DNA of 28,911 bases from contig BNTW01000030.1 of the NCBI GenBank assembly GCA_025996895.1, forward strand, positions 1-28,911. The letters are read 5' to 3'. The stretch comes from Bacteroidia bacterium (GTDB taxonomy: Bacteria; Bacteroidota; Bacteroidia; Bacteroidales; Azobacteroidaceae). Below the pieces are notes generated by a model. The model had not been told where the DNA came from and did not search any database. It saw only the letters and a program-made list of their open reading frames with translations. Below are positions 21,259-28,911 of this stretch, in pieces (the first letter of the stretch is position 1; each line of letters opens with the position of its first letter). Position numbers and translations under genes: made by a program.

Positions 21259-21331
21259 GCCACTGTAGCTCAGTCGGTAGAGCAACGCATTCGTAACGCG
21301 TAGGTCAGCAGTTCGAATCTGCTCAGTGGCT
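21259..21331 (+). tRNA. tRNA-Thr (anticodon CGU)
   Basis: The 73-nt cloverleaf has acceptor arms GCCACTG/CAGTGGC, D-arm GCTC...GAGC, anticodon loop TTCGTAA (CGT, reading ACG), and T-arm around GTTCGAATC. The CCA end is not encoded. The base pair next to the anticodon loop (31-39) reads A-C, a mismatch. It lies between the AEC transporter gene and ileS. Confidence 0.93.
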
Positions 21332-21362
21332 CCTAACCTTAGTTCATTGTAAATTTACAATT

Positions 21363-24300
21363 ATGAGCAAAAAGTTCGCTGAATACAACAAACTCGACTT
21401 GTCAGAAGTCAATCAAGAGATTTTGAAACGCTGGGAAGAACAAAATATCTTCCGCAAAAGTTTGGAAATTCGGGAAGAGGCACCTTCTTTCGTGTTCTAC
21501 GAAGGACCGCCTTCCGCTAATGGAATGCCGGGCATACACCACGTCATTGCGCGAAGTATCAAAGATATTTTCTGTCGCTACAAGACCATGAAGGGCTATT
21601 TGGTGAAACGAAAAGCCGGATGGGACACGCACGGATTGCCGGTGGAACTGGGCGTGGAAAAGGCTTTGGGCATTACCAAAGAGGACATCGGCAAGAAAAT
21701 TTCTGTCGAAGAATACAACGCTGCCTGTCGCAAAGAAGTGATGCGGTTTACCAAAGAATGGGAAGATTTGACTAGTAAAATGGGCTATTGGGTGGATATG
21801 AACGACCCGTATATCACTTACGATAATCGCTATATCGAAACCCTTTGGTATTTGCTTAAAGAACTGTATAACAAAGGATTATTATACAAAGGATATACTA
21901 TTCAACCCTATTCGCCCGCTGCGGGAACAGGGTTGAGTACCCACGAACTCAATCAGCCGGGTTGTTATCGTGACGTGAAAGACACAACTTGTACGGCACA
22001 ATTCAAAATTGTGAATCCGTTGCCTGCGATGGCGAAAAACGGCGAGGCATTTTTCTTGGCGTGGACCACTACTCCGTGGACGTTGCCTTCAAATACAGCA
22101 CTTTGCGTGGGTCCCAATATCGAATATGTTGCCGTGCAAACCAATAATCCCTACACCAATCAACCGATGACGGCTGTTTTGGCGAAAGATTTGTTGCCGG
22201 CTTATTTCAAGGAAATTCCGGAAATTATCGCGACTTGGAAAGGCGAAGAATTGGCGGGTATGGAATATGAACAACTCATTCCGTGGGTAGTCCCAGCCCC
22301 TCCCCAGCCCTCCCCTCAGGGGAGGGAGCCCGGTTCTCCCCCTGAGGGGGAGTTAGAGGGGGCTGCATTTCGTGTGATTACCGGCGATTTTGTAACTACC
22401 GAAGACGGTACGGGTATCGTGCATATCGCACCGACTTTTGGTGCGGATGACGACCGCGTGGCAAAAGCCAACGGTGTCCCGCCCTTGATGATGACCGACA
22501 AAGACGGCAATCGTCGTCCGATGGTTGACCTGACCGGTAAATTTTTCCTGTTGGAAGATTTAGACCCTGAATTTGTCAAGACTTCGGTCAATGTGCCTTT
22601 TTATGCCGAATATGCCGGACGTTATGTGAAAAATGCTTATATTCCAGCCCCTCCCCAGCCCTCCCCTCAGGGGAGGGAGCCCGGTTCTCCCCCTGAGGGG
22701 GAGTTAGAGGGGGCTACATTGGATGTTGATATTTGCGTGATGCTGAAACAACAAAACCGCGCTTTCAAAATCGAAAAACATACCCACAATTATCCACATT
22801 GCTGGCGTACCGACAAACCGGTATTGTATTATCCCTTAGACAGTTGGTTTATCAAAACGACTGCCGTGAAAGACGAAATGATTGCGCTCAACAATACCAT
22901 TAATTGGAAACCGCAATCGACCGGTTCGGGACGTTTCGGCAAATGGCTCGAAAATTTGCAGGACTGGAATTTGTCGCGTTCGCGCTATTGGGGCACTCCA
23001 TTGCCGATTTGGCGCACGGAAGACGGTGCGGAAGAAAAATGTATCGGCTCTGTAGCGGAATTGATAACAGAAATCAACAAATCCGTTGCGGCAGGTGTGA
23101 TGCCCGAAAATCCATACAAAAATTTCCAACCGGGCGTTTATACGAAAGAAAATTATGCGGTCGAAAACATCGACTTGCATCGTCCGTTTGTCGATAATAT
23201 CGTTTTGGTTTCCGAAAGCGGCAAACCGATGAGACGCGAATCGGACTTGATAGATGTCTGGTTTGATTCGGGCGCAATGCCGTTTGCACAACTGCATTAT
23301 CCGTTTGAAAACAAGGAACTCATAGATGACCAAGGGGATTCCCGCCTGCGCGGGAATGACAGTCCCAATTATCCGGCAGATTTCATTTCCGAAGGAGTCG
23401 ATCAAACGCGCGGCTGGTTTTTCACGTTGCACGCTATCAGCACGATGATAAAAAAATCGGTAGCGTTCAAAAACGTGGTTTCTACCGGTTTGGTATTGGA
23501 CAAAAACGGCAACAAAATGTCCAAACGTTTGGGCAATGCCGTTGACCCGTTTTCCACGATTGCCACTTTCGGCTCCGACCCCTTGCGCTGGTATATGATA
23601 ACCAATGCCAGTCCGTGGGACAATCTCAAATTCGATCCCGAAGGCATAGAAGAGGCTCGCCGCAAATTTTTCGGCACGCTGTATAACACCTATTCGTTCT
23701 TCGCATTGTACGCTAATGTGGACGAATTTACCGGACAGGAAACGGAAGTTCCGTTCGACCAGCGTCCCGAAATCGACCGCTGGATATTGTCGCTCTTGAA
23801 CTCCTTGATTAAGGAAGTTGATGAACAATACGCCGCCTACGAGCCTACGCGCGCCGGACGAGCCATCAACGATTTTGTCAACGACAACCTGAGCAACTGG
23901 TACGTGCGCCTCAACCGCAAACGTTTCTGGGGCGGCGGAATGAGTACCGACAAATTGTCGGCATACCAAACGCTGTACGCGTGTCTGAAAACTGTTGCGC
24001 AACTGATGTCGCCTATCGCACCGTTTTACGCGGATAAATTGTATTTAGACTTAACAGCCCCCTCTAACTCCCCCTCAGGGGGAGAACCGGGCTCCCTCCC
24101 TTGTGGGGAGGGCTGGGGAGGGGCTTCTGTGCATTTGACCGATTTCCCGACAGCCAACGAGTCTGTCATCGACAAATCCTTGGAAGAACGGATGCAAATC
24201 GCGCAGGATATTTCTTCGATGGTGTTGGCATTGCGCAGAAAAGTGAATATCAAAGTGCGTCAACCGCTGTCGTCTATTATGATTCCGATTATGGATAATC

Positions 24301-26422: not shown

Positions 26423-26523
26423 GATTGTGTCGTATTATCGCAGTTTCAATGTAAATTTATCTTCTGATGTTTAATTTATTTGTTTGATTATCCGGACAAA
26501 GTATTTTGTAAAAAAATATTTTC

Positions 26524-26604
26524 TGCCAAATCTACCTAAAATATACCACATTCGGCAGATAATTTTTAAATAGCTTGCCAAATCAATATTTTTTTATACC
26601 TTTG
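26524..26604 (+). promoter_or_regulatory. Promoter and operator-like sites of the ATPase gene
   Basis: TTG (26575-26577), 19 bp, TACCTTTG (26597-26604) form the promoter. TGCCRAAT motifs occur at 26524-26531 (+), 26550-26557 (-) and 26576-26583 (+). The first two plus the segment ACCACATTCGGCAGATAATT match the region before the S41 gene in sequence and spacing. Confidence 0.65.
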
Positions 26605-26625
26605 CGGCGAAAAATAATTTGAATT

Positions 26626-28044
26626 ATGAAAAATATAATTGGCAGGAAATCAGAGATAAATCGGCTTACGGAATATCTAAATTCCGACAAAGCCGAGTTA
26701 TTGGTGGTCTATGGCAGGCGTAGGATTGGCAAAACGTTTTTGATCAAACGGTTTTTTGGCGAAAAATTTACTTTCTATTTTTCGGGAGCCGAAAATGCAA
26801 GCAAAAAGCAGCAACTTTTTAATTTTACTACTACACTAAACAAATACAGCACAGCCAATTACCCACTTGCAGAGGATTGGCAAACGGCTTTTGTGCAGTT
26901 GGAAGAATATTTGCGAAATGTCAAAACCAAAGGTAGAAAAGTAATTTTTATAGACGAATTGCCGTGGTTAGATAACGCCAAATCAGGATTTTTGTCGGCA
27001 TTTGAGTATTTTTGGAACACATTTGCTTCCGCGCAAAAAGATATTTTTTTGGTAGTGTGCGGCTCGGCTACTTCGTGGATTACCAACAAAATTCTTAAAA
27101 ATCGTGGCGGTTTGCATAATCGCGTAACCCGTCAGATTCGTTTAGAGCCATTTACACTGAACGAAACAGAGCAGTTTTTGAAATCCAAAAAAATAGTGAT
27201 GTCGCGTTTTCAAATTCTCGAATGTTATATGATTTTGGGAGGTGTGCCCTATTATTTGGAACAGTTGGAAAAATCGTTGGGATTGTCGCAAAATATTGAT
27301 AATCTGTTCTTTAAAAAAAATGCCATATTGCGTGATGAATATGAGAAACTCTATTCTTCGCTGTTCAAGTCGCCGCAGAAATACAGGCAAATCATTGAGG
27401 CGTTGGCACAAAAACGCAAAGGTTTAACCCGTGATGAAGTCTCGAAGTTTTCGCACATTTCAATCGGCGGCGGTTTAACCGGTATTTTGGATGAGTTGGA
27501 ACAGTGCGGATTTATTTCAATTAACAACCATTTCGCCACTAAAAAGAAATATCAATTGTATCAACTAACGGATTTTTATTCACTGTTTTATCTCAATTTT
27601 GTAAAAGATAAACAAGGTACAAATAGCGATTATTGGAGCAGTTTAACGGGCAGCAGTGCGTATAAAGCGTGGTCGGGATATTCGTTTGAGTTGCTGTGCC
27701 AAACACACATTGAACAGATTAAGAAAGCGTTAAGTATCGGAGGCGTAGTTTCATACACTTCGGGTTGGCGTAGCAAAGAGGCGGAAAGCGGTGCACAAAT
27801 TGATTTGCTTATCGACAGAAACGACAATATTATCAATCTTTGCGAAATGAAATATTCAAATAAACCATTTGTGATTACAAAAAGCTATGATGAAAATCTG
27901 CGAAACAAATTGGGTGCTTTTGTGGAAGAAACCAAAACGCGCAAAACCGTACATATCACAATGATAACAACTTACGGAATAAAACACAATGAGTATTGGA
28001 ATAATATTCAGAGCGAAGTTACTATGGAAGATTTGTTTGATTAA
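26626..28044 (+). CDS. DUF234-type ATPase with PD-(D/E)XK-like C-terminus
   Basis: A 472-residue protein with Walker A GRRRIGKT (30-37), Walker B VIFIDELPWLD (106-116) and the AAA_14/archaeal-ATPase pattern FTLNETEQFLKSK and LGGVPYYLEQL. A winged-helix segment (LTRDEVSKFSHISIGGGLTG) comes next. The C-terminal DUF234-like domain has QIDLLIDR (D393) and CEMKY (E407, K409), the D...ExK shape of a restriction-endonuclease fold. Such proteins are common as single genes in Bacteroidetes and archaea and their role is unknown. It has its own promoter. Confidence 0.88.
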   Translation: MKNIIGRKSEINRLTEYLNSDKAELLVVYGRRRIGKTFLIKRFFGEKFTFYFSGAENASKKQQLFNFTTTLNKYSTANYPLAEDWQTAFVQLEEYLRNVKTKGRKVIFIDELPWLDNAKSGFLSAFEYFWNTFASAQKDIFLVVCGSATSWITNKILKNRGGLHNRVTRQIRLEPFTLNETEQFLKSKKIVMSRFQILECYMILGGVPYYLEQLEKSLGLSQNIDNLFFKKNAILRDEYEKLYSSLFKSPQKYRQIIEALAQKRKGLTRDEVSKFSHISIGGGLTGILDELEQCGFISINNHFATKKKYQLYQLTDFYSLFYLNFVKDKQGTNSDYWSSLTGSSAYKAWSGYSFELLCQTHIEQIKKALSIGGVVSYTSGWRSKEAESGAQIDLLIDRNDNIINLCEMKYSNKPFVITKSYDENLRNKLGAFVEETKTRKTVHITMITTYGIKHNEYWNNIQSEVTMEDLFD

Positions 28045-28053
28045 AAAATAACC

Positions 28054-28134
28054 TGCCAAATCTACTATAAAAACACCACATTCGGCAGATAATTTTTAAA
28101 AAACTTGAAATTTGCCGAATTTGTTATATCTTTG
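28054..28134 (+). promoter_or_regulatory. Promoter and operator-like sites of the S41 gene
   Basis: TTG (28105-28107), 19 bp, TATCTTTG (28127-28134). TGCCRAAT motifs occur at 28054-28061 (+), 28080-28087 (-) and 28113-28120 (+). The first two have the same 26-bp spacing as in the ATPase promoter. Confidence 0.65.
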
Positions 28135-28175
28135 CCATCTAAAAAATCACTTTAATAAAATTTTGATTGAGAATC

Positions 28176-28799
28176 ATGCACTGTTTTATTTCAAGAAAAA
28201 TAAGTTTAGCACTGATTGTGCTCGGTTCGTTAACGATCTTTTCATCGTGCGAAGAACAGGAATCCATAAGTGAAAAAATCCGCCGAAATCAGAATGTCAA
28301 CGACTGGATATTGGAGAACATGGAAATGTGGTATTTGTGGAACGACAAACTGCCGGTAAAAACCAATAAAAACCTTGAGCCGGAAAAATATTTTGAATCC
28401 TTGCTTTACAAAGAGGGCGATCGTTTTTCGTGGATTCAAGAAAATTTCACTGAATTATTGGAGTCGCTTTCCGGCGTACAACTGGAGGCGGGGTATGATT
28501 TCTCTTTGGGACTATTGGACGACAATTCGTTAGTCGGGCTGATTAACTATGTAAAGCCCAATTCGCCCGCATCGCAAGCCGGGTTGAAACGAGGCGATTT
28601 TTTCCTCACTATCAATGGTGTTCAACTGCCAAAGAACAATGATGAAACGTTGCGGAATTTGCTTAATGCACTTTCTGCCAATCATACCTTGGGAATTATT
28701 ACGCAAAATACCATTAGAGAAGTATCCCTCTCAGTCGTTAAATACGAAGAAAATCCGATTTTGTTGGATACCGTTTACGAAATAAGGAAATGTCCGTAA
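28176..28799 (+). pseudogene. S41 peptidase lipoprotein, cut by IS
   Basis: The ATG at 28176 gives a lipoprotein signal with lipobox TIFSSC (Cys24). Next is the S41 N-terminal helical domain (NVNDWILENMEMWYLWNDKL). A PDZ domain follows (about 100-180; LVGLINYVKPNSPASQAGLKRGDFFLTING). The frame turns into IS sequence at 28785 and stops at 28799, so the whole catalytic Ser/Lys domain is missing. The remaining product would be a secreted lipoprotein with a PDZ domain only. Confidence 0.88.
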
Positions 28800-28911
28800 A
28801 TTAATTTTACATTTATAGTGTTAGTATCAAAAATTATAGCTAACTTTGCGTCATGGAAAATCTCAAAGAAAAGTTATCGTTAATCTCTCCCCATTTAAAC
28901 GAAAAGCAAAG
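28785..28911 (+). mobile_element. End of an insertion sequence (right copy, partial)
   Basis: Exact reverse complement of bases 1-127. It carries a TAACTTTG promoter box (28841-28848) and the transposase start at 28853. The inserted end is AGGAAATGTCCGTAA, directly after the S41 codons DTVYEI. Confidence 0.85.
28853..28911 (+). CDS. Transposase N-terminus (partial, runs off right edge)
   Basis: Nineteen codons beginning MENLKEKLSLISPHLNEKQ, then the window ends. Identical to the left-edge frame; family tentatively ISAzo13-like. Confidence 0.5.
   Translation, partial: MENLKEKLSLISPHLNEKQ

Follow-up and report, generated by a model that had tools for sequence, protein, structure and literature searches.

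In-frame palindromic inserts in a Bacteroidia isoleucyl-tRNA synthetase gene as probable ORF-less relatives of elements encoding a DUF559 nuclease

The window analyzed here, a stretch of 28,911 nucleotides, is contig C30 of the draft genome G000 of a Bacteroidia bacterium (3.12 Mb in 258 contigs, 97.7% complete). It contains an isoleucyl-tRNA synthetase gene (ileS) with an uninterrupted open reading frame, whose product matches the synthetase, anticodon-binding, and C-terminal domains PF00133, PF08264, and PF19302. Within this gene lie three copies of a double-hairpin element without an ORF of its own, together with a different palindromic repeat (Table 1). Two further repeats are present in the window. 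An inverted 127-bp repeat (1-127 and 28785-28911) starts and ends the contig and is common to the ends of other contigs, probably reflecting an assembly overlap inside a mobile element. In addition, a 93-nt direct repeat, 76% identical between its copies (26513-26605 and 28043-28135), is located upstream of two genes and may represent a shared promoter region.

Table 1. Features of the ileS region, in window coordinates.
Feature	Position	Strand	Remarks
tRNA-Thr (CGT)	21259..21333	+	Adjoins ileS on the upstream side; context only
ileS, isoleucyl-tRNA synthetase, 1183 aa	21363..24914	+	Open ORF; Pfam; second, non-syntenic ileS copy of the genome
Copy 1, ORF-less double-hairpin element	22295..22366	+	IleS loop 1 (editing domain), residues about 311-334
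Copy 2	22646..22717	+	Equals copy 1 except for the last bases; IleS loop 2, residues about 428-451
Different palindromic repeat, GATTCCCGCCTGCGCGGGAATGAC	23337..23360	+	IleS loop 3
Copy 3, inverted, two changes	24055..24126	-	IleS loop 4, residues about 898-921

A repeat search recovers the direct copies at 22293-22369 and 22644-22720 (99% identity) and the inverted copy at 24055-24125 (97% complementary), which confirms the coordinates and identities of the three copies, two direct and one inverted with two changes, reported in an initial annotation of this DNA. The same annotation placed the copies in loops of IleS with the frame kept open, and this agrees with the open 1183-aa ORF and with the shorter length of those loops in relatives. 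The structure model of the window IleS is of insufficient quality (mean pLDDT of 57), and loop positions were therefore taken from alignments with solved IleRS and with relatives. The element was also thought to be open when read from either strand, but a TGA closes copies 1 and 2 in the reverse frame used by copy 3. One of the two base changes in copy 3 is silent and the other converts TGA to TGT, an apparent stop loss that fits survival of stop-free insertions. The different REP described in the same gene is confirmed, and the pattern used for it has no other exact match in G000.

A second ileS is found in G000 at C2:58912-62322 (L081). It is 82% identical to the window copy, lacks the 72-bp element, and shares neighbor genes with four of the five stretches compared from relatives. 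The window ileS shares neighbor genes with none of these five stretches, and both copies fall within one eight-row tree group. Consequently, the essentiality that the initial annotation attributed to the window gene does not follow, as the genome holds another, syntenic and element-free copy. With a dN/dS of 0.06 to 0.07 against G006, G002, and G030 (dS of >1), the window ileS nevertheless looks functional. The C2 copy has a longer branch than the window copy and carries a different palindromic repeat, CHSALDAESPAKQ, in loop 3.

The three window segments are absent from all 30 other IleS rows aligned; in the same alignment, loop 2 of G002 holds a different insert, and many rows vary in loop 4. 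Among the best 120 database homologues, with named sources including Candidatus Symbiothrix, Candidatus Azobacteroides, and Dysgonamonadaceae, the median lengths of loops 1, 2, and 4 are 7, 13, and 15 aa, compared to 27, 29, and 29 aa in the window protein. Each element therefore replaces part of a loop. Clean insertion at residues 311-334, 428-451, and 898-921, which the initial annotation expected an alignment to reveal, is not what the DNA shows, since loop sequence is replaced by each copy. Similarly, residues are gained as proposed, but the net gain is about 20, 16, and 14 for loops 1, 2, and 4 rather than 24 codons each time. Loops at least 9 residues above the median occur in 1 of 106 (loop 1, the window protein only), 9 of 112 (loop 2), 6 of 118 (loop 3), and 24 of 100 homologues (loop 4), counts that include the window protein and the other G000 IleS among the best 120 and drop rows without a flanking motif. 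In this group, repeats of several types have repeatedly settled in these IleS loops. An origin of the segments as ancient conserved IleS sequence, the outcome named initially as speaking against an insertion, was tested and is not supported by the 30-row alignment and the loop lengths. Two homologues show other peculiarities: the in-frame insert in loop 2 of G002 (L052) has ends, TTCGGCGAAGGCTCTGCCTTCGTCG and its complement, that look like inverted repeats, and P0005 is a 1319-aa IleS homologue with a long internal tandem duplication, which is either real or an assembly error.

Outside the three ileS sites, no full-length 72-bp unit occurs in G000, where 21 further matches cover a single hairpin. 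A match to the element is present in 13 of 58 genomes, its own included, and at 23 of 26 loci of relatives a stop-to-stop frame of at least 100 codons, a weak criterion, runs through it. Hosts in the genus, named from 15 loci scanned out of 18 taken further, include genes for RF3, DNA polymerase I, FGAM synthase, ATP synthase gamma, and ValRS; one TonB receptor gene carries two element copies. Palindromes thus lie in frame in several unrelated genes of the genus, in support of the proposed likeness to Rickettsia palindromic elements (RPEs). Of the "active protein-tolerated repeat family" put forward earlier, the family and its tolerance are borne out, but the full unit has not expanded elsewhere in G000. 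Of the single-hairpin matches in G000, 20 loci (L004-L023) were inspected, and 17 of them share a near-identical leader with a composite hairpin element 36 to 55 nt before an ATG. The frames behind these leaders are long, most have a signal-peptide-like start by eye, and many begin with MRTIKF; these genes may represent an expanded family of secreted proteins that share a 5' region.

Matches to the element tend to cluster. In total, 14 of 66 pairs are at most 2 kb apart, compared to 0.09 expected, where pairs within a cluster are not independent and where the test omitted the 21 single-hairpin G000 matches and the one-match genomes (except G028); adding the former would raise the expectation by about 0.35. 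Some of these pairs may be the two ends of one element. Clustering within 2 kb in other genomes, the three near-identical copies in one gene with no other full-length copy in G000, and the simple tandem repeats that occupy the same loops in some relatives would also suit local duplication, by which replication slippage or template switching at hairpins, together with gene conversion, spread a chance palindrome in ileS. Given that the same element type is present in other genomes and genes, and that the same ends are found with a nuclease ORF between them (see below), we regard this origin as distinctly unlikely. Local duplication may still account for local spread of a mobile element.

The nuclease in question is DUF559 (PF04480), which we take to be a PD-(D/E)XK/Vsr-like nuclease; its match to REase_MTES_1575 is below the cutoff. 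In G030, a member of the same genus, a 1294-aa IleS contains DUF559 in loop 3 (residues 653-759; E value of 5.5e-36) and hairpin sequences in loops 1 and 2. PF04480 is matched in 12 of 39 relatives and in at least 124 of 295 genomes of the order, and among the matches listed for these 295 genomes, at least 25 lie in frames of >300 aa. The in-frame cases considered here, also 25 in number, comprise 23 of the listed long-frame matches plus those of G030 and G010, leaving out two long-frame matches without an identified host (L167 and L168), weak matches in other protein types (L105, L106, L107, and L110), and fragments (L111-L113). Their hosts are leuS (nine), ileS (five), hsdR (three), N6/N4 methylases (two), and one each of valS, hsdM, a type ISP gene, an Eco57I-like gene, a DegT aminotransferase gene, and an epimerase gene. 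Family searches named 21 of these hosts; three leuS genes (L153, L159, and L160) were identified from a motif, and the G010 hsdR was assigned by eye. Restriction-modification genes make up 8 of the 25 (L161, L163-L166, L148, L151, and L098, the last of these assigned by eye). PF04480 is also listed inside a methionyl-tRNA synthetase and a B12-dependent methionine synthase (P0231 and P0208), further hosts of the same kind.

The insertion sites are recurrent. All nine leuS inserts are situated directly before the FTTRPDT motif or a variant of it, and all five ileS inserts between the DVWFDSGAMPYAQ and PADFIAEG motifs, in the same loop 3 that holds GATTCCCGCCTGCGCGGGAATGAC in the window gene. The DUF559 insert of P0053 uses a different IleS loop (loop 4), and the ValRS inserts L262 and L264 precede the TTRPET motif. 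The match to the leuS editing domain is cut at its start in 7 of 118 genomes. Five of these are DUF559 cases, and the remaining two have a 182-aa insert (G063) and a tandem repeat (G079). Database LeuRS proteins with PF04480 are encoded on contigs of up to 4.9 Mb, for example, that of Formosa agariphila KMM 3901 on 4.2 Mb. G000 itself has a single, free-standing DUF559 copy, on another branch of the tree. Its leuS (L220, contig C12) carries a perfect, in-frame palindrome of ~32 nt, TTGTAGGGGCAGGGCGCGCCCTGCCCCTACAA, at the exact leuS site that holds DUF559 in other genomes. No link of DUF559 with palindromic repeats or tRNA synthetases was found in the titles and abstract openings of the open-access PubMed Central articles surveyed.

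Read in reverse, the window element consists of one half, 4 to 7 nt, and a second half. The flanks of DUF559 in G249 match these halves in the same order and orientation, with one substitution and two gaps between the window half and the upstream flank and three substitutions for the downstream flank. The summed score equals 98, compared to 55 for the best of 300 dinucleotide shuffles and 52 for the best of 514 control positions; the next best flank match, that of the DUF559 copy in the G208 ileS, scores 78. The upstream G249 flank contains more than one palindromic unit. Moreover, the G249 gene with DUF559 also carries an in-frame ORF-less copy that is 81% identical to that of the window. It is the best full-length match outside G000 among the 295 genomes of the order, of which 11, its own included, show any match to the window element. 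At loop 4 of IleS, P0053 reads DLTAPLNPPSGGD-DUF559-GGFRGAS, compared to DLTAPSNSPSGGE...GWGGAS in the window, and in the G139 leuS a scar retains the two outer ends of an element found intact in G238, a member of the same family. Between the ends of the window copies, no nuclease ORF is present in the 4 to 7 nt that separate the halves, and these copies would therefore be ORF-less derivatives rather than full members. At the inserts, no target-site duplication was recognised in the DNA compared; loop bases are replaced instead.

Hairpins at the borders of DUF559 extend beyond these examples. GC-rich hairpins with a stem of at least 7 are found on both sides of 23 of 56 DUF559 copies, compared to 0 of 1283 control positions (17 of 25 in-frame and 6 of 31 free-standing copies). 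For 80 loci from named records, at a stem of at least 6, both sides carry a hairpin in 59 (33 of 876 controls) and at least one side in 75 (220 of 876 controls). Hairpins on both sides here occur at 25 of 44 loci called in-frame, meaning frames of at least 260 aa of which some are fusions at gene starts, and at 34 of 36 free-standing loci; the 15 leuS loci of this set have a hairpin on both sides in 2 cases and on at least one side in 12. These data bear on whether the palindromes are ordinary REP- or MITE-like repeats moved by an unrelated transposase, with DUF559 a passenger between them. Many palindrome copies do lack DUF559 nearby, and loops accept many kinds of repeats, because several unrelated palindromic repeats share the same IleS loops in the genus. 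The excess of hairpins on both sides of DUF559 in both sets, and the match of the window element's ends to one DUF559 element on both sides and in order, render such a passenger role unlikely. Instead, the shared ends suggest that the window copies are very probably ORF-less forms of the DUF559 element family.

Nuclease ORFs in conserved genes resemble the homing endonucleases of inteins and introns, which raises the possibility that the inserts are spliced out or, alternatively, are old conserved IleS sequence. Both are extremely improbable: the segments are missing from the 30 IleS rows compared, no Rfam intron family was found by cmscan in 11 loci (the only hit being a tRNA), no intein/Hint or other splicing domain appears in the Pfam lists of 11 nuclease-bearing proteins, and the reading frame is continuous through both junctions of in-frame DUF559. 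An assembly chimera or a contaminant contig, which may in one variant come from a close relative within the bin, would be compatible with the second ileS in the bin, with the inverted repeat at the two contig ends, and with a window IleS protein known from one contig only. Yet these ends overlap the ends of C36 (127 identical bases) and C124 (133 bases, 98%) in a manner that resembles the assembly graph of this bin, and three other window proteins are single-copy in it. As in-frame DUF559 inserts are also present in isolate genomes, on contigs of up to 4.9 Mb, we consider an artefact very unlikely.

A DUF559 tree built on a small number of columns, with many forks unresolved, groups 18 in-frame copies from leuS, ileS, valS, hsdM, DegT, and epimerase genes (SH-aLRT of 97). 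Copies in restriction genes (hsdR, mod, ISP, and Eco57I type) fall outside this group, and in-frame copies are separate from most free-standing ones. Nuclease and LeuRS identities correlate at 0.62 over 20 hosts and at 0.91 over 12 Flavobacteriia, values that match what vertical inheritance would predict; only the eight Bacteroidales hosts show no correlation (-0.27, p = 0.17). Codon comparisons at shared residues hint at movement in some cases. For the pair Flavivirga aquimarina and F. jejuensis, the nuclease has the same codon at 93 of 101 positions and LeuRS at 540 of 833 (p = 1.7e-9), and similarity is not raised in the flanks of the nuclease. Three other pairs go in the same direction (p = 0.001, 0.004, and 0.014) and three are without difference, all seven pairs having been picked after dS values were seen. 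Residues D363, E374, D376, and H380 are invariant in the 36 LeuRS-embedded copies, and nuclease dN/dS is low in LeuRS-embedded pairs with usable dS, in line with a nuclease that is, by these measures, under purifying selection. In a model of the Formosa agariphila LeuRS (mean pLDDT of 75), the nuclease is folded between two stretches with a pLDDT of <50 (296-315 and 429-441).

Taken together, we propose, with a probability of roughly 65% for the statement as a whole, that the window inserts are ORF-less members of a Bacteroidota mobile-element family, located in frame, unspliced, and possibly homing-like. The full form would comprise a C-rich lead with a hairpin, a DUF559 nuclease ORF, and a hairpin with a G-rich tail, in frame with the host gene across both junctions. 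Its ends would encode peptides rich in Gly, Pro, and Ser that serve as flexible linkers, which would allow a host enzyme to function unspliced with an insert in a surface loop. The nuclease would cut element-free alleles or nearby DNA, and repair would copy the element in, as in homing. ORF-less copies would arise by internal deletion and then be copied in trans or close by, accounting for the clusters within single genes, and only loop insertions with an open frame would survive. The odds that spread is nuclease-driven and homing-like are about even, and the recurrence of sites could also be explained by what the host protein tolerates. A broader scheme falls slightly short of even odds: a selfish class that homes to conserved positions in essential genes and is maintained through translation rather than splicing, its ends serving as mobility signals and linkers, DUF559 as an internal domain of the host protein, and ORF-less palindromes as remnants or hitch-hikers. 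The DUF559 domain would, with the same slight reservation, reside within LeuRS, IleRS, ValRS, or restriction enzymes.

Several known systems resemble these elements in part. The double-hairpin elements of Allomyces mitochondria consist of two hairpins, are located in genes, and are thought to be mobile. We know of no nuclease-bearing form of them. The two hairpins in genes are as described here, but the Allomyces elements are mitochondrial and are likened by description only. A second parallel is offered by REP elements with RAYT transposases (REP/BIME systems). RAYT is a tyrosine/HUH-type enzyme, whereas the gene between palindromes here is DUF559. In both cases, palindromes flank a nuclease-like gene and many copies lack an ORF; however, REPs are described as extragenic in the parts of the literature drawn on, in contrast to the full-length window copies in the ileS coding frame (PMC3733652 and PMC6006769). 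Bacterial MITEs are likewise ORF-less derivatives with the ends of a longer element and sometimes form in-frame fusions, according to the sections used of PMC10969869, but the longer element here encodes a DUF559 nuclease instead of a known transposase. Homing endonucleases share the position of a nuclease in conserved genes, recurrent sites, and signs of horizontal movement (PMC3943268, as excerpted), and one insertion site is indeed observed in 9 of 9 leuS and 5 of 5 ileS DUF559 cases. Unlike inteins and group I introns, the inserts come without an intein domain or intron in the sets searched, seem to stay in the protein, and have palindromic ends. RPEs, finally, are ~150 bp and form in-frame fusions with protein genes, so that both systems place short palindromes in frame in unrelated protein genes; the portion of that account used here names no nuclease-bearing form, in contrast to the 72-bp Bacteroidota element with its DUF559 form (PMC10969869). 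By this analogy in behavior, rather than by membership, the window inserts taken alone would work like RPEs. Considered in its entirety, the DUF559 element family may form a separate class.

Carriers of the nuclease-bearing form include marine Flavobacteriia isolates with long contigs. To our knowledge, no mechanism is established for the movement of bacterial in-frame palindromic repeats such as RPEs, and a nuclease-bearing form with matching ends at the same sites makes their movement testable. If the proposal is true, a nuclease domain lies inside many annotated LeuRS and some IleRS proteins, and no splicing device is needed for a gene to host a selfish endonuclease.
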